Below are positions 1-32,166 of a stretch of DNA of 32,764 nt, piece by piece. The notes beneath the pieces were generated by a model, which was given only the letters and a program-made list of their open reading frames with translations, searched no databases and was not told where the DNA came from. The stretch spans positions 1 to 32,764 of the forward strand of contig JADZCI010000097.1 of the NCBI GenBank assembly GCA_020851655.1, written 5' to 3'. A program made the position numbers and the translations under genes. The stretch comes from Bryobacterales bacterium. Lineage in GTDB: Bacteria > Acidobacteriota > Terriglobia > Bryobacterales > Bryobacteraceae. Position 1 is the first letter of the stretch. Each line of letters begins with the position of its first letter.

Positions 1-298
1 CGGAGTGGCCGCAGATCACGACATGTTCGACGCCGAGGGCGGCGACCGCGTACTCGATGGATGCGACGGTTCCGCCTTCGACGGTACCGGCGGGCGGAAC
101 GATGTTACCCGCGTTGCGAATCAGGAACAGGTCGCCCGGATCGGCCTGCGTGAACAGGTTGGGAACCACGCGTGAATCCGAACAGGTTACGAACACAGCC
201 GCGGGATTCTGATTGCGGGCGAGCCGGGCGAACAGGCCCCGGTGCCGAGGGTACGCCTCCCGGTAAAATTTCGCTACGCCTTCAAGAAGTTTGAGCAT
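1..298 (-). CDS. Beta-carbonic anhydrase, 3' part outside window
   Basis: Interconverts CO2 and bicarbonate with a zinc ion, probably in the cytoplasm since no signal peptide is seen. The 99 visible residues start MLKLLEGVAKFYRE and contain the beta-class zinc motif CSDSR (C39, D41, R43), the RNAGN motif (61-65) and the GHS motif (97-99). The second zinc cysteine, expected just after GHS, lies beyond base 1. The ATG at 298 is chosen because a good ribosome binding site, AAGGA, sits about 7 nt upstream and overlaps the TAA stop of the preceding decarboxylase gene. The 9-nt gap and this overlap indicate one operon and coupled translation, so the enzyme may handle CO2 released by the decarboxylase. 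The family call is firm; the partnership is inference. Confidence 0.93.
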   Translation of the reverse strand, partial: MLKLLEGVAKFYREAYPRHRGLFARLARNQNPAAVFVTCSDSRVVPNLFTQADPGDLFLIRNAGNIVPPAGTVEGGTVASIEYAVAALGVEHVVICGHS

Positions 299-307
299 TG
301 CAGTTCC

Positions 308-1696
308 TTATACGGCTTTCCTGACCGCATCCCAGACCCTCAGTACATCGTCGTGAGTAGTGGCAATATTGCCGATGGCGATGCGCAGGATGTAGCGTCC
401 ATTGATGACGGAGCCGCCCAGGAACGCCGTTCCCGACTCATTCACTCTGTCGACGATGCGCTGGTTGTCCTCGTCGGTTCCTTTGTATCGCAGGCACACG
501 AGCGAGAGAGTCACGGGCGCGCTGAGTTCGAAGCGGCTGTCCTCGCTAATGAGTCCGGCCAATTGGCGGGCCCACAAATTGTGGCGGCGGATGATGGTGG
601 AAACGCCCTCACGCCCGAAGTAGCGCATGACAAACCAGAGCTTGAGCGCGCGGAACCGCCTGCCCAGTGCGATGCCGTAGTCCATGTAATTGACGGCCCG
701 CGAATCTTTTTCCGTCCGGAGGTAGGGCGGCACCAGCGAGAATGCTTCGCGCAAAGCTCCGGGTCTCCGGCAGAAGAAGGCGCTGCAATCAATCGGAGTG
801 AACAGCCACTTGTGAGGGTTGAAGACCAGGGAGTCGGCGCGTTCGGCGCCCTGGAGCATCCAGCGCATTTCCGGCAGAATCGCCGCTGCGCCGCCATAGG
901 CCGCGTCGACGTGGTGCCACAGGCCCTCACTCTCGGCGATAGCCTGAATTTCGGCGACCGGGTCAATGGCCGTGACCGCCGTCGTTCCCACGGTTGACAC
1001 AATGCAGCAGGGACGCAGTCCGGCGGCGCGGTCGTGCTGAATCGCCTTGGCCAACTTTGCCGGGATCATTCGGAACGCGGCGTCAGCCGCGATCTTTCGC
1101 ACCTGCTCCAAGCCCATGCCGAGAGACATGGCGCCCTTTTCGACGGAGCTGTGCGCCTGCTCCGAGGTGTAGACGATCAAGTCGCGAGGGGCTCCCTTCA
1201 ACCGGGTTTCCGGCGCCGCTGAGACGCGTGCGGCGGCAATCGCTTGCAGTGTGCTGGTCGAGGCAGTGTCCAGAATTTCGCCGAAGAAAGCTTCCGGCAG
1301 TCCAAGCCACTGCCGCAGCCACGACATCACCACTTGCTCCAATTCGACATGCCCGGGACACGACTTCCAGAGCATGCCGTTGGTGTTGATGGCGGATGCG
1401 AGGATTTCCGCCAGAATGCCGGGCTTCGACGCCGAGACCGAGAAATAGGCGTTGAAGCGGGGATGATTCCAGTGATTCAGCGCCGGGACGATGATCTCTT
1501 TGAAGTCGTCCAGGATGTCTTCCATCGGTTCACCATGGACGGGCGCCGCATCCGGCAACGCGTCGACGACATCGCCGGGTTTGACTTGTGGAAAGACCGG
1601 CAAGTCGCTCATTTCATCGAGGTAGTCTTCCACCCAGTCGATCACCTGGGTGCTGAATCGCCGGAATTCCTCCGGCGGCATATCGTTGGGTCGCAT
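308..1696 (-). CDS. PLP-dependent group II decarboxylase (aromatic-amino-acid decarboxylase family)
   Basis: Predicted to remove CO2 from an amino acid, probably aromatic, using pyridoxal phosphate in the cytoplasm. The 462-residue protein has the family features in order: an N-terminal segment with HPRFNAYF (78-85), the cofactor-stacking His in SEQAHSSVEK (H182), the Asp that binds the pyridine nitrogen in HHVDAAYGG (D264), and the Schiff-base Lys in FNPHKWLFT (K296). These match His192, Asp271 and Lys303 of mammalian aromatic-L-amino-acid decarboxylase. The open frame extends upstream to 1969, but the homologous region begins with MRPNDMPPEEF at 1696. A longer start would run into the divergent gene at 1775. 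The substrate (aromatic amino acid, glutamate or other) cannot be decided from sequence alone. It is followed immediately by a carbonic anhydrase gene. Confidence 0.9.
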   Translation of the reverse strand: MRPNDMPPEEFRRFSTQVIDWVEDYLDEMSDLPVFPQVKPGDVVDALPDAAPVHGEPMEDILDDFKEIIVPALNHWNHPRFNAYFSVSASKPGILAEILASAINTNGMLWKSCPGHVELEQVVMSWLRQWLGLPEAFFGEILDTASTSTLQAIAAARVSAAPETRLKGAPRDLIVYTSEQAHSSVEKGAMSLGMGLEQVRKIAADAAFRMIPAKLAKAIQHDRAAGLRPCCIVSTVGTTAVTAIDPVAEIQAIAESEGLWHHVDAAYGGAAAILPEMRWMLQGAERADSLVFNPHKWLFTPIDCSAFFCRRPGALREAFSLVPPYLRTEKDSRAVNYMDYGIALGRRFRALKLWFVMRYFGREGVSTIIRRHNLWARQLAGLISEDSRFELSAPVTLSLVCLRYKGTDEDNQRIVDRVNESGTAFLGGSVINGRYILRIAIGNIATTHDDVLRVWDAVRKAV

Positions 1697-25308: not shown

Positions 25309-26387
25309 AGTTGATTCCAACCATTGCCTTTCTGTTGACGGGAGTTTCCGCCCAGAGTCCCGCGCCTCAGGGTACACTTACCGAGGCGCAGGCGGTCGCA
25401 GTCTACGAACGCGCGGTGCAACTGATGGAGTCGACGGGATTCGCCATCCCGAACCTGACGCAGCCCGCGGCGCCGCTGACCGAGTCGGCGCGCCAGTCGG
25501 TACTGTCGCTCAAGGGACTGGGCGGCGGCAACCCGGATGTGCATTACCAGTTTCTGACCAGCCTCCGCGCCTATTTGATGCTGGCCGATGCGGTCCGGAA
25601 ACCGAACCCGTTTCCTGTCGAAGCCAAACGCCAATTGGTTGAATTGCGTGATGCGCTCTCCACTTCCGAAACGTACTTTGAAGCTTTGATCGAGCGGGTT
25701 TACCGGGCTTCCCGCAGCTCGGACCGGGATAATCTGGCTCGCTACCAGGATTCCAATGCCCGCATCGGCGCGCCGGCTCCCAACCGCCCGCGAGTCGTAT
25801 TTCTCGGTGACTCCATCACGGATTCATGGCGGCTGAACGAATATTTTCCGGACAAGGACTTCATCAACCGGGGCATCGGCGGGCAAATCACCGGACAAAT
25901 GCTGGGCCGGTTCAACGCGGATGTCATCCGCCTGAAGCCGGCCGCAGTGCTGATTCTCGCGGGCACCAACGATATTGCGCGCGGCGTCTCGCTGTCTGCG
26001 ATTCAAGACAACCTGGCGATGATGGCGGACCTGGCCGTGGCGCACCAGATCAAGCCGATTTTCGCGACCCTGCTGCCGGTCAGCGATTATCACAAGAACA
26101 CCAATCCTTCCTACGAGCGCACCAAGGCGCGTCCGCTCGCGGTGATTCGCAATTTGAACCAGTGGCTGAACGAGTTTTGCCGCGTGCGGAATTTCACGTT
26201 TGTGAATTACTATTCCGTGCTGGCCGACCCGAGCGGCCAGTTCAAGTCCGACCTGGCGCAAGACGGGCTGCACCCCGACCCTCCGGGGTACCGTTTGATG
26301 GCTCCGTTGGCGCTGGAGGCCATCAACAAGACGATTGCCCCGGCTCCGGCGGCACAAACGCAAGGCAAGAAGCGGCGTCTATTCTAG
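25305..26387 (+). CDS. Exported SGNH/GDSL-type hydrolase
   Basis: A 360-residue exported esterase-type enzyme. The signal peptide is about 1-17 (IAFLLTGVSAQ). An alpha-helical segment (about 25-150) precedes the SGNH domain, where all blocks are visible: block I FLGDSITD with nucleophile S170, block II NRGIGGQ (G190), block III ILAGTND (N222) and block V DGLHPDPPGY (D320, H323). Such enzymes cleave acyl or acetyl groups from lipids, polysaccharides or peptidoglycan. The N-terminal extension is longer than in minimal SGNH proteins and is not recognised. It overlaps the upstream DUF3108-like gene by 4 nt and is followed 4 nt later by an unrecognised secreted protein, so the three form one operon. 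Confidence 0.9.
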   Translation: MKLIPTIAFLLTGVSAQSPAPQGTLTEAQAVAVYERAVQLMESTGFAIPNLTQPAAPLTESARQSVLSLKGLGGGNPDVHYQFLTSLRAYLMLADAVRKPNPFPVEAKRQLVELRDALSTSETYFEALIERVYRASRSSDRDNLARYQDSNARIGAPAPNRPRVVFLGDSITDSWRLNEYFPDKDFINRGIGGQITGQMLGRFNADVIRLKPAAVLILAGTNDIARGVSLSAIQDNLAMMADLAVAHQIKPIFATLLPVSDYHKNTNPSYERTKARPLAVIRNLNQWLNEFCRVRNFTFVNYYSVLADPSGQFKSDLAQDGLHPDPPGYRLMAPLALEAINKTIAPAPAAQTQGKKRRLF

Positions 26388-26391
26388 AGGT

Positions 26392-27462
26392 ATGCGGTTG
26401 TTGCGCCTCATGGCGCTCGCCCTGTTGGTGTTCGCCGCGCAGGCACAGGTCAAGCTGTCTGTTGCGCAGCTCAAGTCATTTTTGCGCTCCTCGATTCAAC
26501 TTCAACATCCGGACAAAAAAGTCGCCGAGTACTTGAAAAAGGTTGTGCTGACCGAGAGTCTGGATGACCGCACCATTGAGACTTTGCAGGGCGAGGGCAT
26601 CGGTCCAAAGACCGCCGAAGCGCTGCGCGGTTTGCGCGACGCCTCCGCAGCCTTGCCGAAGCCGGGCGTCGAACCACCAAAGCCCGCCGCACCTCCGCCG
26701 ATTCCGCCGCCCAGCGTCGAGCAGCAGAAGAAAGCCATCGATGAAGCCCGCGAGTTGGCGCTGAGTTTCAGCAAGCGTTTGCCGGACTTCATTTGTCTGC
26801 AAGTGACGCGGCGTTACGTGGATCCGTCGGGCCTCGAGTTCTTCCGCCTGGCTGATACAGTCGCCGCGCGCCTCAGCTATTTCGAGCAGAAGGAAGACTA
26901 CAAGGTCGTCTCCATCAATGGCAGCCTGGCCAATGTCGAGTACGACCGGTTGGGCGGCGCCACCTCCAGCGGCGAGTTCGGCACGATGTTGCGCGAGCTG
27001 TTCGAGCCCTCGACACAGGCCCAATTCTGGTGGGAACGCTGGGCCACTCTGCGCGGACGCCGGATGATGGTGTTCGGCTACAAGGTCCCTCAGGCGTATT
27101 CCAAGTGGCACCTGATATACGACAAGCAGCTGGACGTGGTGCCCGGCTACCACGGGCTAATTTACATCGACCGCGACGTGCCGGTTGTCATGCGCCTGAC
27201 GCTTGAAGCGACCGACGTGCCGCCGTCGTTTCCCATCCAGGAAGCCCGCACGATGATGGACTACGACTACACAACCATCGCGGACAAGGAGTTCCTGCTG
27301 CCGTTACGCGCCGAGATACGCATGCGGGAAGGGAAGTTCCTGGTCAAGAACCAGGTGGAGTTCCGCAGTTACCGCAAGTTCGGCGCTGAAGCGACCATCA
27401 CGTTCGAGACGCCCGAACCGCTTTCCGACGACAAGATCAACGAAAAGCCCCCACAAGAATAG
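26392..27462 (+). CDS. Secreted protein of unknown function with helix-hairpin-helix-like segment
   Basis: A 356-residue protein I do not recognise. It has a signal peptide (about 1-19, LMALALLVFAAQAQ), a helical segment with a helix-hairpin-helix-like motif (IETLQGEGIGPKTAEALRG, about 62-80), a proline-rich linker (about 89-108) and a C-terminal beta-rich domain (about 120-350). That domain begins LPDFICLQVTRRYVD, contains conserved-looking YDRLGG and FWWERWATLRGRRM, and ends in FRSYRKFG. Such a secreted domain with alternating strands could bind a lipid or glycan, but no function is assigned. The ATG at 26392 lies 4 nt after the SGNH hydrolase stop, with GAGG just upstream. Its TAG stop (27460-27462) abuts, with no spacer, the stop of the convergent methyltransferase gene. 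Confidence 0.7.
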   Translation: MRLLRLMALALLVFAAQAQVKLSVAQLKSFLRSSIQLQHPDKKVAEYLKKVVLTESLDDRTIETLQGEGIGPKTAEALRGLRDASAALPKPGVEPPKPAAPPPIPPPSVEQQKKAIDEARELALSFSKRLPDFICLQVTRRYVDPSGLEFFRLADTVAARLSYFEQKEDYKVVSINGSLANVEYDRLGGATSSGEFGTMLRELFEPSTQAQFWWERWATLRGRRMMVFGYKVPQAYSKWHLIYDKQLDVVPGYHGLIYIDRDVPVVMRLTLEATDVPPSFPIQEARTMMDYDYTTIADKEFLLPLRAEIRMREGKFLVKNQVEFRSYRKFGAEATITFETPEPLSDDKINEKPPQE

Positions 27463-28881
27463 TCAGCCGCGGAGGAGCCGCAGCATGCTCAGGTTGACGG
27501 AAAGGCGGCGGTCGTCGCCGGCTACCTGATAGGTGGGTGATGCGTGGACTTCGACCGTGTAGGTTGCCGTGTCGGCTACGGGAGTCTCCAGGACGAAGAG
27601 ACCGGGCCGGCTAATCTCCCACGCTCCCGCCTCGGCGCCGTTGACGACAATCCGGATTTGCTTTGGCTGGCTGTGGCGCAACCACGCTTCGCTCGCGTAA
27701 CCACGCACTCGCAGGATGTGTGTTCCTGGTGAGACGCGCTCCAGTTTCGCTGCCGCCGTGGCGCCGATCCAGCGGTACTTGTTGCCGTAGATGCCTTCCA
27801 ATTCGAAAAAGCCGCTGATCAGGCGGTCTTCGTGCGGCGCCTGGCTGAAATCGATGATGTCCGGCCGGTCACCCGGATACAGTTCGTTCTTGGTCGCGGT
27901 GGGAAGCAGGTTGTAAACGCCGTCTTCGTCGGGAGCGCGGTAGCGGCACCCGGTACACACGAGCGCGTCCGCATCCTTGACAAACGCGCTTCCACAGTCG
28001 GGGCACCGGAGCAGTTGGCTCCACTCGGCGCGCGCTTCAACCGGAGCGGTTCCCGCTTTCTTGCAGACCGCCGCCAGGGTTCCGCCCAGCAGGCGAGCGG
28101 GCAGCCAGTCCGATCCCAGACGGTCAAGGCGGCGTCCAGCCTGGCGCACGACCCGCTCGCCCCAGCCGCGTTCGGCGACGAAAAGGTGATGGCGGGATTC
28201 TGGAAAGTGCGTCTGAATCAGGTTGTGCCACTTGACCAGCGTCATCGTGTGGTTCTGCCGGATGCCAAAGCTCTCTTCCTGATGCGCCCCAATGACGTCC
28301 TGCACGAGGTAGCCCAGGAGTCCCCAGGCGTGCAGTTTGCGTTCCCAGGGCTTCATTTCGCGCTCGTAGGGCGCCCGATAGAGACGGAGCGAGAGGATGC
28401 GGCGGATGGGTTCTTCGGCGAACAGAAAAACACCTCCCGGCGCCAGAACCCGCTTCACCTCTACAAACACCGCTTCGATGTCCATAAACTGGCTCAACAT
28501 CTGAAAGGCCATGACGAGGCGCAGCGAATTGTCGGCAAACGGAAGGCGCAAGGCGTCTCCGGCGACCCGGACCGGCGCTTTTGTGAGCCCCCAGGCGGCC
28601 ATCAACGCCTTTCCGTACCGCAGGGAATCGGCGGAAATGTCCAACGCGAAGCCATCGGCGCCAAACTCATTGGCCAGCATGTAGCTGGAGTGGCCGGCAT
28701 TGGATCCGATTTCGAGGAACGGCGTCATGGGCCCAATGAAATCGAGATGCTGGCGAATGACCGCGCCCCGGCGTTCGTTCTCGGCGCGGTAGGCTGCCAT
28801 GGCGCGCTCGGGTTCGCCCAGCGACGCAAACTGGTGGAACTCGACCTCGGCGCGCTTGACCGCAAGGGACTGGGCTTCCAT
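27463..28881 (-). CDS. SAM-dependent methyltransferase with zinc ribbon and C-terminal beta-sandwich
   Basis: A 472-residue protein in three parts. Residues about 30-240 are a class I methyltransferase with SAM motif I LEIGSNAG (56-63), the acidic end of strand 2 in ALDIS and LAPGGVFLFAEEP. Residues about 288-330 are a Trm112-like zinc ribbon, CPDC (C293, C296) and CTGC (C309, C312), followed by DGVYNLLP. Residues about 350-472 look like a beta-sandwich (GFFELEGIYGNKYRWIG to SVNLSMLRLLRG) of a type seen in surface-glycan enzymes. This suggests modification of a surface polysaccharide or lipid, but no substrate is known. The start ATG at 28881 follows the lipoprotein gene stop by 4 nt. The stop abuts that of the convergent gene. 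Confidence 0.85.
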   Translation of the reverse strand: MEAQSLAVKRAEVEFHQFASLGEPERAMAAYRAENERRGAVIRQHLDFIGPMTPFLEIGSNAGHSSYMLANEFGADGFALDISADSLRYGKALMAAWGLTKAPVRVAGDALRLPFADNSLRLVMAFQMLSQFMDIEAVFVEVKRVLAPGGVFLFAEEPIRRILSLRLYRAPYEREMKPWERKLHAWGLLGYLVQDVIGAHQEESFGIRQNHTMTLVKWHNLIQTHFPESRHHLFVAERGWGERVVRQAGRRLDRLGSDWLPARLLGGTLAAVCKKAGTAPVEARAEWSQLLRCPDCGSAFVKDADALVCTGCRYRAPDEDGVYNLLPTATKNELYPGDRPDIIDFSQAPHEDRLISGFFELEGIYGNKYRWIGATAAAKLERVSPGTHILRVRGYASEAWLRHSQPKQIRIVVNGAEAGAWEISRPGLFVLETPVADTATYTVEVHASPTYQVAGDDRRLSVNLSMLRLLRG

Positions 28882-28885
28882 GGCG

Positions 28886-29257
28886 CTATTGCACCCAGCG
28901 TCCGCCGATCATACGGCGTTCTACTTTGTCGCGGAAAGCGGGGTCCAGTTCCGGATTGGCTGTCAGGATGAGGAGATCGGCGGGGTCACCCGCCTGGATC
29001 GTTTTGCCAGGCGTGTTGGAGGCGACGAATTTGCCCAGTCCGCTGATCTTGTCCGAATCGCGCGGCACCGGGACGCTGGCTTGAGGGCCGGCGGCTTCGA
29101 TCTTTCCGCCTTTGATGACGATAACGGAATAGGGTACCGAGACATGGTTCCGGGCATCCACCAACCCGGCGCCGACGATGACCTGCGCCGGCGCGTTGCC
29201 GGGTGGGCTACAAGCCGCAAGAAATACCACACAAGAGAGAAGACAGCGTTTCAACAA
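28886..29257 (-). CDS. Small lipoprotein resembling an amidohydrolase composite domain without the catalytic barrel
   Basis: A 123-residue lipoprotein: MLKRCLLSC, then a hydrophobic stretch and lipobox LAAC (C16). Residues about 25-77 (VIVGAGLVDARNHVSVPYS, KGGKIEAAGP) match the N-terminal beta-sandwich strands of imidazolonepropionase-type amidohydrolases. Residues about 78-123 (QAGDPADLLILTANPELDP, ERRMIGGRWV) match their C-terminal strands. The metal-binding TIM barrel of about 280 residues, which normally lies between them, is absent, so hydrolase activity is not expected. The frame is intact and placed tightly between two genes, so it is probably a functional remnant or binding module. 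The start is TTG at 29257 or TTG at 29254, the latter forming a TTGA overlap with the HAD stop. Confidence 0.75.
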   Translation of the reverse strand: MLKRCLLSCVVFLAACSPPGNAPAQVIVGAGLVDARNHVSVPYSVIVIKGGKIEAAGPQASVPVPRDSDKISGLGKFVASNTPGKTIQAGDPADLLILTANPELDPAFRDKVERRMIGGRWVQ

Positions 29258-29937
29258 ACAATTGACTCCACGGAAAGACTGCGCATATCGGGAACCACCA
29301 GGTCGGGCTGGTATGTCCGAAGCTCTTCGACATCGGCGAGGCCGGTTCCCACGGCAATCGACCGCAAGCCGTTGGCGCGGGCTGCGAGGATGTCGTTCGG
29401 GTGGTCGCCGATCAGCACGATGGGGCTCGATGACTCAATCCACCCGGCGCGGCGGGCTTCGGCCACGGCGAGTTTGGCCAACTGTGCCCGTGTTTGCGCG
29501 GACTCGGCGAAAGCGCCGAAACGGAAATGCCGGCGCAGGCCGGCTTGCTCCATTTTGCGCCAGCCAATGCGGCTGAGGTTGCCAGTAACAAGCCCCATGA
29601 CAGTCTGCCGGCGGCTCAAGCGATGCAGCAAGGAGCGCACACCGGGGCAAACGTAGCGCCGCAAGTCCGGGCAGCGCTTCACATACAGGCGCTGGGCGCG
29701 AGTGAAGATTTGGGGCAGCGAAGAACGGATCGCCGGCCTGGGAAGTCCGCAGCGTCTCAGCATCTGAGCCAGAATGTCGCCATCGAGCATCCCTTGCACC
29801 GGGATTCCATCGGTGGTCGCGGCCAATCCCGTCACCAGGCGCACAGCATCTTCGAGTACTTGACGGTGATGCGGACCCGCGCGGCGGATCAACGTGCCGT
29901 CGATATCGAACAGGACAAGAGCGGGGGGAAGCACCAA
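29251..29937 (-). CDS. HAD-superfamily phosphatase (phosphoglycolate phosphatase-like)
   Basis: A 228-residue cytoplasmic haloacid-dehalogenase hydrolase. Motif I is FDIDGT (D11, D13), motif II Thr is in GLVTGN (T118) and motif IV is IGDHPND (D178, D182). A helical cap lies between motifs I and II. Members dephosphorylate sugar phosphates, phosphoglycolate or similar small molecules; the substrate is not identifiable. The gene is the first of a three-gene unit, overlapping the barrel-less amidohydrolase lipoprotein gene by 4-7 nt, followed by a methyltransferase. It starts 61 bp from the divergent deacetylase gene, so both promoters must lie in that short gap. Confidence 0.88.
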   Translation of the reverse strand: MVLPPALVLFDIDGTLIRRAGPHHRQVLEDAVRLVTGLAATTDGIPVQGMLDGDILAQMLRRCGLPRPAIRSSLPQIFTRAQRLYVKRCPDLRRYVCPGVRSLLHRLSRRQTVMGLVTGNLSRIGWRKMEQAGLRRHFRFGAFAESAQTRAQLAKLAVAEARRAGWIESSSPIVLIGDHPNDILAARANGLRSIAVGTGLADVEELRTYQPDLVVPDMRSLSVESIVC

Positions 29938-29998
29938 TCTTTCATTCTAACTTTGGAACTCCTGTCCGAAGCCGTACGATAGAATGGCCGGAGAAATG

Positions 29999-30859
29999 AT
30001 GCGAAGAGTCTTGCTCGCCGCCGCGTTGGCCATGATTCCATGCGCCGCCCAACAGAAGCTCCGGGTGATTGCCTTTGGCGCCCATCCCGACGATTGCGAT
30101 ATCAAGTTTGGCGGCACGGCGGCCAAGTTTGCCAAACAGGGACACCTGGTCAAGTTCGTGTCCATCACCAACGGCGATGCGGGGCATCAGGAAATGGGCG
30201 GCGGCGCGCTCGCCCGGCGGCGGTACGCCGAGACTCAGGAATCGGCCCGGCGCCTCGGCATTGCGGAATACGAGGTCTTCGACAATCATGACGGCGAGTT
30301 GCTGCCGACCATCGAAGTTCGCCGCCAGGTGATCCGCGCGATTCGCCAGTGGAAAGCCGATATTGTCATCGCGCCCCGCCCGAATGACTACCATCCGGAT
30401 CATCGATACACGGGGGTCCTGATTCAGGATGCCGCCTACATGGTGGTGGTTCCGAACATTGTGCCCGACACGCCCGCGCTCGCGAACAACCCGGTGTTCC
30501 TTTACTACCAGGATGGATTCCAGAAGCCGTCTCCGTTCCGGCCGGATGTGGTGGTTCCGCTCGATGATATTTGGGACACCAAGATCAACGGGATGGACGC
30601 GCACACGTCGCAGTTTTATGAATGGCTGGCGTGGGTGGATCATAAGCTCGCCGAAGTGCCCAAGGATCCGGTTGAACGCAAGCGCTGGCTCTCGGGGATG
30701 CGGCTCCAGCCCATCGACGCGGCCGTAAAGGCGACGCTCGTCGACGAGCTTGGCGCGGAACGCGCGGCCAAGGTTGGGAAGGTGGAAGCGTTCGAGCTTT
30801 GCGAGTATGGCCGCCGCCCGTCGCTGGCGGAATTGAGGAAGATGTTTCCAATCCCGTGA
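29999..30859 (+). CDS. Exported PIG-L/LmbE family deacetylase
   Basis: A 286-residue zinc-dependent N-deacetylase family protein. A signal peptide (MRRVLLAAALAMIPCAAQQ) leads to the metal motif AHPDD (H29, D31, D32) and the third zinc ligand in RPNDYHPDHR (H135). Family members remove acetyl groups from GlcNAc-containing compounds such as GlcNAc-inositol or antibiotic precursors; exported acidobacterial members have unknown substrates. In-frame ATGs are at 29984, 29996 and 29999. The last is chosen because GGAG ends 5 nt before it and the signal peptide then starts cleanly. The stop overlaps the GTG start of selA (GTGA), so translation is coupled. No functional tie to selenocysteine synthesis is evident. 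Confidence 0.9.
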   Translation: MRRVLLAAALAMIPCAAQQKLRVIAFGAHPDDCDIKFGGTAAKFAKQGHLVKFVSITNGDAGHQEMGGGALARRRYAETQESARRLGIAEYEVFDNHDGELLPTIEVRRQVIRAIRQWKADIVIAPRPNDYHPDHRYTGVLIQDAAYMVVVPNIVPDTPALANNPVFLYYQDGFQKPSPFRPDVVVPLDDIWDTKINGMDAHTSQFYEWLAWVDHKLAEVPKDPVERKRWLSGMRLQPIDAAVKATLVDELGAERAAKVGKVEAFELCEYGRRPSLAELRKMFPIP

Positions 30860-32166
30860 ACGAGCGGCTTCGGACGCTGCCTTCGGTCGATGCGCTCGCT
30901 GGCATAACCCCCGAAGCGGCACGTTACCCTCACCGAGTGGTTGTGGCGGAGGCACGGCGCGTCATTGAAGCGGCGCGCCAGCAACTTCTCGCGGGAATCG
31001 ACCCGCCTTCGGATCTTTCCGCGGAACTGGCTCGCGCGCTCGAACGCCTCCGCAACCCTTCGCTGCGGCGGGTGATCAACGCCACCGGCGTCGTGCTTCA
31101 TACCAACCTGGGGCGCGCGCCGCTGCCGCCGGCTTCTCCTTTTGGGCTCTACTCGAATCTGGAGTACGACCTCGAAGAAGGCAAGCGGGGCAAGAGGGAT
31201 GCTCATTTCGCACCGCTTCTCGAACGGCTGCTGGGCTCGGCCGGAATCGCGGTGAACAATGGCGCCGCGGCCGTGTGGCTGGTGCTCAGGGAGTTCGCCG
31301 CCGGTCACGAAGTCATCGTTTCACGCGGCGAGCTGATTGAAATCGGCGACGGTTTCAGGATCCCCGACATTATGGCCGAATCCGGCGCCAAACTCGTCGA
31401 AGTCGGCGCCACCAACCGCACCCGGATCGAGGATTATCAAAGGGCCATTACCGCCAGGACCCGCCTCATTCTGAGGGTGCACCCGAGCAATTTCCGGATA
31501 GAGGGGTTCTCGGGAAGCCCGACTCTTGAAGAACTGGCCGCGCTCGCGTCGGAACGCGCGATTCCCTTGTACGAAGACCTTGGCAGCGGGAACCTCTGGG
31601 ATCTGTCCGCGTGGGGTATCGACGAGCCTACCGTGGCTGCCAGTCTCAAAGCTGGCGCCGGCTTGGTGTCTTTCAGCGGCGACAAGCTGCTGGGAGGTCC
31701 GCAAGCCGGAATTATTGCCGGCCGGGCGGAACTTGTCGAGCGGGTTCGAAGGAATCCCATGTACCGGGCGCTGCGTCTCGACAAACTGGCCGTGGCGGCG
31801 CTGGCACGAACGCTTCGCGCCACACTGCTCGAATCCTGGGATGAGCTTCCGGCGCTGGCGATGATCCGGCAGCCGCTCAAAGCCCTTTACGCCCGCGCGC
31901 AGCGCCTCGCCTCGGCTGTGAACGGGGAATTGATGGAAGGAGAATCCGTGATCGGCGGCGGATCGACTCCCGCGCAAACGCTGCCCGCATGGCTGGTGGC
32001 GTTGCCGGGTGATGCCATCCGGTTGGAATCGCGCCTGCGGCGAGGGGATCCCCCGGTCATCGCCAGAATCGAAAATGGGCGGCTTCTGATCGACCTCCGC
32101 ACCACCGGACCGGAGGAAGATCAAACGCTGTTGGAAGCGGTTCAGCGGGCGCTGCTCCCGGCTTAG
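30856..32166 (+). CDS. selA: L-seryl-tRNA(Sec) selenium transferase
   Basis: SelA converts seryl-tRNA(Sec) to selenocysteyl-tRNA using selenophosphate and PLP. The 436-residue protein keeps the family signatures [18 protein letters not shown] (71-88), [15 protein letters not shown] (98-112), [28 protein letters not shown] and [14 protein letters not shown] with the PLP Lys at K277. The N-terminal tRNA-binding segment ([12 protein letters not shown]) is present, so it is not a short SelA-like homolog. The GTG start at 30856 (GTGA overlap with the deacetylase stop) is preferred to upstream candidates because it begins at this conserved segment. Its presence implies selB, selD and tRNA-Sec elsewhere. 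The TAG stop overlaps the convergent efp stop by 4 bases. Confidence 0.93.

Follow-up and report, generated by a model that had tools for sequence, protein, structure and literature searches.

The metal ligands of the amidohydrolase superfamily are an HxH motif, a lysine, two histidines and an aspartate. In the branch that holds prolidase (Xaa-Pro dipeptidase) and the molinate/phenylurea hydrolases (PF01979; PDB 2p9b, 4wgx, 4whb and 3mtw), a composite beta-sandwich is built from both ends of the chain, and the gene described here, called X, encodes a predicted sandwich of the same composite kind in a short putative lipoprotein, hereafter a mini. Unlike those enzymes, the mini has neither the barrel nor the metal site, and the copy in the window (the whole stretch of DNA analysed, 32,764 nucleotides) gave no match in Pfam and NCBIfam scans, with no curated model above the cut-off.

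Domain atrophy, as described by Prakash and Bateman (2015, PMC4432964), is the loss of core elements from a domain that was complete in its ancestor, in a protein that is apparently functional, and the examples in the sections of that paper drawn on here include TIM barrels such as LuxF. The process is rare, and the reasons for its fixation are still not clear, according to the cited portion of a further paper (PMC8250049). A literature search judged on titles and the first lines of abstracts found no description of a barrel-less amidohydrolase lipoprotein or of a free composite domain.

The window gene and its predicted fold

X lies between a HAD-family hydrolase gene and a methyltransferase gene (MT), and the features of this region are as follows.

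28886..29257, minus strand: mini lipoprotein X, an intact open reading frame of 123 aa from a TTG start (28886-28888 is the stop codon)
29254, minus strand: alternative TTG start of X, 3 bases on, giving 122 aa and a TTGA overlap with the HAD stop
Residues of X: signal peptide and lipobox-position Cys16; N-terminal strands, about 24-80; C-terminal strands, about 87-123
29000..29023 (approximate), minus strand: fusion point, a short linker of residues 79-86, placed by alignment with the full-length relatives L136, L132 and L134 and by linker lengths
29251..29937, minus strand: HAD-family hydrolase, phosphoglycolate-phosphatase-like (PF00702, E 2.6e-12), overlapping the start of X
27463..28881, minus strand: SAM methyltransferase (PF08241, E 6.1e-14), 4 nt after X

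The second TTG may be the true start of X. The hydrophobic N terminus, judged by eye and with a simple pattern, ends in LAAC, in which Cys16 stands at the position of a lipobox cysteine. After Cys16 the sequence runs 'IVGAGLVDAR...SVIVIKGGKIEAAGP...' and then 'AGDPADLLILTANPELD...RRMIGGRWVQ'. Judging from these sequence features, X would be exported, lipidated and anchored in a membrane. The base composition of X by codon position is about that of its neighbours, the third position being slightly lower. The preliminary description of this DNA had read X as an intact frame with a lipobox in front, flanked by HAD phosphatase and methyltransferase genes, and this reading was borne out by the LAAC motif with Cys16, by the frame, which spans exactly 28886-29257, and by the PF00702 and PF08241 neighbours on the same strand.

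The window MT also carries zinc-ribbon matches below the cut-off, and MT is matched at E <= 1e-80 in 131 of the 237 genomes of the window's family; one in-frame stop lies inside the MT match in each of the genomes G239, G028, G233 and G232. A Bryobacteraceae-type MT gene is present as well in MAG records labelled Bordetella parapertussis, Acidimicrobiia or Gammaproteobacteria (L289, L241, L296 and L301), and these labels may therefore be wrong. Beyond MT, the protein encoded at 26335-27462 on the plus strand shows a weak helix-hairpin-helix match (below the cut-off) and no NCBIfam family, and in L061, L071, L075 and L081 a homologue (51-59%) is encoded downstream of X. On the other side, a PIG-L-type deacetylase and a SelA-like gene (29984-32166, plus strand) are divergent from the HAD-X-MT operon.

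A profile of 58 minis linked both halves of the protein to solved amidohydrolases, the first half best at E 5.5e-13 (molinate hydrolase) and the second half through the C-terminal strands of other entries, such as LlADH at E 0.003. In the alignment with full-length relatives, one of which (L136) carries PF01979, a barrel of about 330 residues occupies the fusion point. AlphaFold2 predicts that, without this barrel, the two halves fold into a closed beta-sandwich with a pLDDT of 90 for the window mini (91-98 per ten-residue block from residue 21), as had been anticipated for a small composite domain, and the model superposes on the composite domain of the putative prolidase 2p9b with a Z of 16.5 over 100 residues at 1.9 A, drawing on both ends of that chain (10..431). 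AlphaFold2 may, for its part, draw such a sandwich even if the isolated domain is unstable, composite domains having been learned from full enzymes. A plain Foldseek search with the mini model returned weaker, one-sided matches (best E 7.5e-5 over 58 columns), which is expected because the domain is built from two distant segments. Taken together, the profile matches on both halves, the 58-row alignment and the sandwich model confirm the original proposal that X joins both ends of the amidohydrolase composite domain and that the catalytic barrel is missing.

Distribution, conservation and selection of the minis

As a single query, the window protein retrieved a junction-spanning protein of 39% identity from another genus (E 5e-18, query residues 13-123), and window X is therefore not a chance arrangement. 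With a search profile built from eight such short proteins, the window's included, minis of 103-137 aa with the same fusion point were found in 57 of 237 genomes of the window's family (window included), which belong to 16 genera of Bryobacteraceae-type Acidobacteriota. A further mini, 144 aa long, comes from a sister family of the same order (L140, genome G054) and brings the total to 58; its genome is of about 1.8 Mb, no HAD or MT was found near it, and its long branch makes its place in the tree unsure. Minis scored at least 99 bits against the profile, and the longer relatives listed scored below 92. Elsewhere in the order, each of the 20 genomes gave a match at E 1e-8, with a mini in G054 only. 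Among 396 genomes drawn from the phylum, E 1e-22 was reached by two, the window's own and one of the same family, and weaker minis are possible below this cut-off. The minis are common to many species of the genera g50, g53, g24 and g84. The 80 named loci from the MT scan are mostly from Bryobacteraceae/Solibacter-type Acidobacteriota, and a same-strand X of some length is present in 32 of them.

The alignment of the minis, from which two short frames near contig ends were excluded, as they were from the trees (L118 and L119, one apparently out of frame after the N-terminal strands), is invariant at the lipobox-position cysteine (C16), Ala93 and Gly119, and nearly so at Gly29, Gly57, Pro65, Leu95 and Trp121. 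The linker between the last N-terminal and the first C-terminal strand has 7 or 8 residues in 51 of the 58 and 4-12 in all. No mini has an internal stop, the (beta/alpha)8 barrel is absent from every one, and all six metal-ligand columns are empty in 58 of 58, which supports the earlier view that the protein is catalytically empty. Homologues of about 120 residues with the same fusion point, by which the preliminary description expected a real family to be recognised, thus exist, and the neighbours recur with them, with HAD in 36 of the 58 mini loci and MT within 35 nt downstream in 28.

Nearly all of the named records are MAGs, and partial domains in databases are mostly artefacts according to the cited part of one study (PMC4443539), so that an assembly or gene-calling error might be suspected. 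The same mini, however, occurs in many genomes, and the G129 mini is also found in AP025252.1, the nearly complete genome of Bryobacterales bacterium F-183, which is not marked as a MAG. Because of this recurrence and the F-183 genome, an artefact was rejected, and we give it practically no weight.

Selection was estimated as dN/dS by the simple NG86 method for the 59 mini pairs of at least 55% identity. The values lay at 0.06-0.41 in the 44 computable pairs, dS being saturated in the other 15, and the 14 pairs with dS below 1 spanned the same range. For shortened barrel-bearing pairs, dN/dS over the composite and barrel parts was 0.10-0.36 in seven of eight, with one saturated. As these values are well below 1, minis and half-barrel forms are maintained proteins where this can be tested. 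The window protein, whose best relative is 50% identical in a pairwise alignment, is in none of the pairs; it keeps its frame open, has the cysteine and every invariant or nearly invariant column, and reaches a top score with the profile, of which it is itself a part. A pseudogene was rejected for the minis on these dN/dS values and on their freedom from stops, and a deletion confined to the window copy, which had been named as the mark of a pseudogene, is at odds with minis in 16 genera under the same constraint.

Longer forms at the locus and the order of losses

The loci sampled numbered 161, namely 80 around X (57 with a mini and 23 with other or longer forms), 80 upstream of MT and the window itself. 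A HAD homologue was present in 94: in these loci X is a mini in 36, has 152-216 aa in 4 and 239-287 aa in 12, is missing from 41 and is unresolved in one; these proportions are not prevalences, because loci found through X and through MT are mixed. In the 41 loci there is no room for X between HAD and MT (40 have junctions of about -26 to 18 nt, and one has 131 nt with a broken HAD frame), and X is therefore dispensable.

The short junctions of HAD-X-MT loci, and in the window the overlap of X with HAD and its distance of 4 nt from MT, would also be compatible with a frame that stays open only to couple HAD translation to that of MT, with in-frame deletions tolerated and frameshifts not. However, HAD and MT are joined directly in the 40 loci just mentioned, 16 of the 17 g50 genomes have minis with neither HAD nor MT in the fetched stretch, and such a bridge would leave the amino-acid constraint and the conserved cysteine unexplained. 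We consider it very improbable.

X also varies in length within single genera. At the HAD-X-MT locus, three species of g23 have forms of 118, 158 and 216 aa, and g55 has forms of 131, 174 and 258 aa together with four species without X, while g24 (nine minis, four without X) and g27 (a 244-aa form, one without) are mixed. The three g55 forms have a C-terminal tail in common (PYAN, PYAN and PFVN), which is a direct sign that they are one lineage. Putative lipoproteins of 239-287 aa that lack the ligands and combine the composite domain with about half a TIM barrel occupy the same locus in L129 (3534-4262), L126, L124, L127, L153, L159, L171, L172, L189 and L196. For a 243-aa relative, an AlphaFold2 model from 14 aligned sequences (pLDDT 92.4) has the composite domain and about half of the barrel and matches 2p9b with a Z of 22.1 over 219 residues, which makes this form a candidate natural half-barrel protein. 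This model, too, comes from a program trained on complete enzymes.

Six full-length relatives with all six metal-ligand positions present were found, five of them beside an MT or DUF4097 gene: the order is X-MT-DUF4097 in G171, MT then X in G244 and G242, and X then a DUF4097 gene in G152 and G240, with neither gene nearby in G003. An eroded X stands before a DUF4097 gene in G019, G001 and G034, and in G026 HAD-X-MT is followed by a DUF4097 gene. In genus g50, a DUF4097 gene lies downstream of 14 of 17 minis (11 at 56-130 nt and 3 at 764-856 nt), and the fetched stretches hold HAD in none of the 17 and MT in one. These overlapping neighbourhoods suggest a single ancestral neighbourhood, which would have had the order HAD-X-MT-DUF4097. 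The DUF4097 ('toastrack') gene has a lipoprotein-like start and follows X on the same strand, mostly 56-190 nt on; in addition to the g50 loci (among L087-L114), this arrangement is seen in L125, L130, L131, L135 and L137.

The long relatives were sampled from the 23 non-mini loci and the loci upstream of MT, leaving out, for example, G159, G179 and G241. The shortened forms retain about half of the barrel, a helix remnant or nothing, and each of the 25 forms of 152-348 aa that were sampled keeps none or one of the six metal-ligand positions. Every one of these thus misses five or six of the ligands, yet 20 of them retain much of the barrel, which places the loss of the metal site before that of the barrel or together with it. 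A complete ancestral domain is evidenced by the full-length and half-barrel relatives, by the gene tree (whose root was not inferred) and by the shared neighbours. The internal deletion first suggested as the origin of X is likewise supported by fusion at the same point in many copies and by the existence of longer and full-length relatives.

On the HAD tree, from which L191 was omitted as no X was recognised between its HAD and MT, at least 14 changes are needed to account for where X is present and where it is absent. An X tree based on the composite domain only needs seven changes between mini and barrel-bearing forms, two of which are forced by well-supported branches. A single origin of the minis was rejected by the AU test, not strongly (X tree, p 0.032; HAD tree, p 0.012), with groups that were named by length and tested once the trees had been seen. 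Because the trees are quick ones based on few columns, it is safe to say only 'more than once', and the trees and alignments show the mini form as having apparently arisen more than once, closing at nearly the same linker.

A length continuum that runs down to complete absence, repeated inside single genera, together with the long end branches of several minis (the window's included), would suit a decaying gene whose minis are a functionless late stage of slow in-frame loss. Such decay is contradicted by the low dN/dS of the mini pairs, by open frames and a lipobox-position cysteine in 58 of 58, by deletions that end at nearly the same linker across lineages and by the spread of minis through many species of four genera, and we regard it as unlikely.

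No recent truncated duplicate was found in the window's own genome, in which the best full-length relative is an amidohydrolase 33% identical to L136. The retention of this enzyme bears on another explanation, a regulatory pseudo-subunit, in which the mini pairs through its composite domain with a full-length amidohydrolase paralogue and modulates it. In G022, likewise, an open frame of 444 aa that begins like X (G022:C12:3628-3879) accompanies the 118-aa mini, a possible paralogue pair, and Prakash and Bateman (PMC4432964, in the sections drawn on here) describe burial of the exposed face of an atrophied domain by dimerisation. However, of the 14 mini loci subjected to clustering, L109 alone has a nearby long protein that falls into the same similarity cluster, and surface hydropathy does not clearly favour either side. 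When 101 aligned mature positions are compared, hydrophobicity is slightly lower in the minis than in the eroded forms (Mann-Whitney p 6e-4, uncorrected for relatedness) and than in the full-length proteins (p 0.04); for the former barrel face there is no one-sided surface change, 20 of the 101 positions being more polar and 18 more hydrophobic in a comparison with only six full-length rows. Because the position-wise change is not one-sided, hydropathy was dropped as evidence. We hold a pseudo-subunit to be decidedly unlikely.

Proposed origin and comparison with known systems

The reading that we favour, with a probability of about 0.65, is repeated stepwise domain atrophy, by which the catalytic barrel was removed and the lipid-anchored composite domain was kept for a non-catalytic role. 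The ancestor of X would have been a putatively lipid-anchored amidohydrolase resembling prolidase or molinate hydrolase, and X would be a remnant of it that selection has kept in relatives. The mini would be exported, lipidated and held at the membrane, where its sandwich might bind or scaffold another envelope component, a job that the ancestral enzyme may already have done beside catalysis. Under this proposal, that job is the reason why the barrel could be done without and the composite domain could not. The role is probably one of binding or scaffolding, as the preliminary description had also supposed, and the DUF4097 neighbour is no more than a lead to the envelope partner.

A more specific version holds that from the outset the composite domain performed a separate function in the envelope on which selection could act, and that, once catalysis was lost, the barrel was trimmed in parallel lineages through stable half-barrels to the same minimal sandwich; we see its chances as evenly balanced. 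If this is true, living species would display the intermediates by which a TIM barrel is fully excised from an enzyme, and the free-standing composite-domain proteins would form a new family. Shared neighbours make it possible to follow one gene through related species: at one end it encodes an enzyme with all its ligands, then half-barrels that have lost them, and finally a sandwich without a barrel. Which event came first, and how stable each form is, can therefore be tested directly, and the barrel-free stage suggests that a composite domain can live alone.

Use of the amidohydrolase fold without catalysis has a parallel in the CRMPs (PDB 4b90 and others, which appeared among the structure-search matches). 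The CRMPs have no known catalytic activity and, unlike the minis, keep the full barrel. The short composite-domain model HUTI_composite_bact (PF22039) is weakly matched by one of six minis scanned (E 0.032, below the cut-off); by its Pfam name this domain is part of imidazolonepropionase-like enzymes, whereas the mini is a separate protein. As in domain atrophy as set out in the sections of PMC4432964 drawn on here, X derives from a complete ancestor by the loss of core elements. In the cases described there, some strands and helices are lost, whereas X has lost a whole inserted barrel while the host domain stays, and, unlike in those cases, sister species still carry its intermediates at a single locus.
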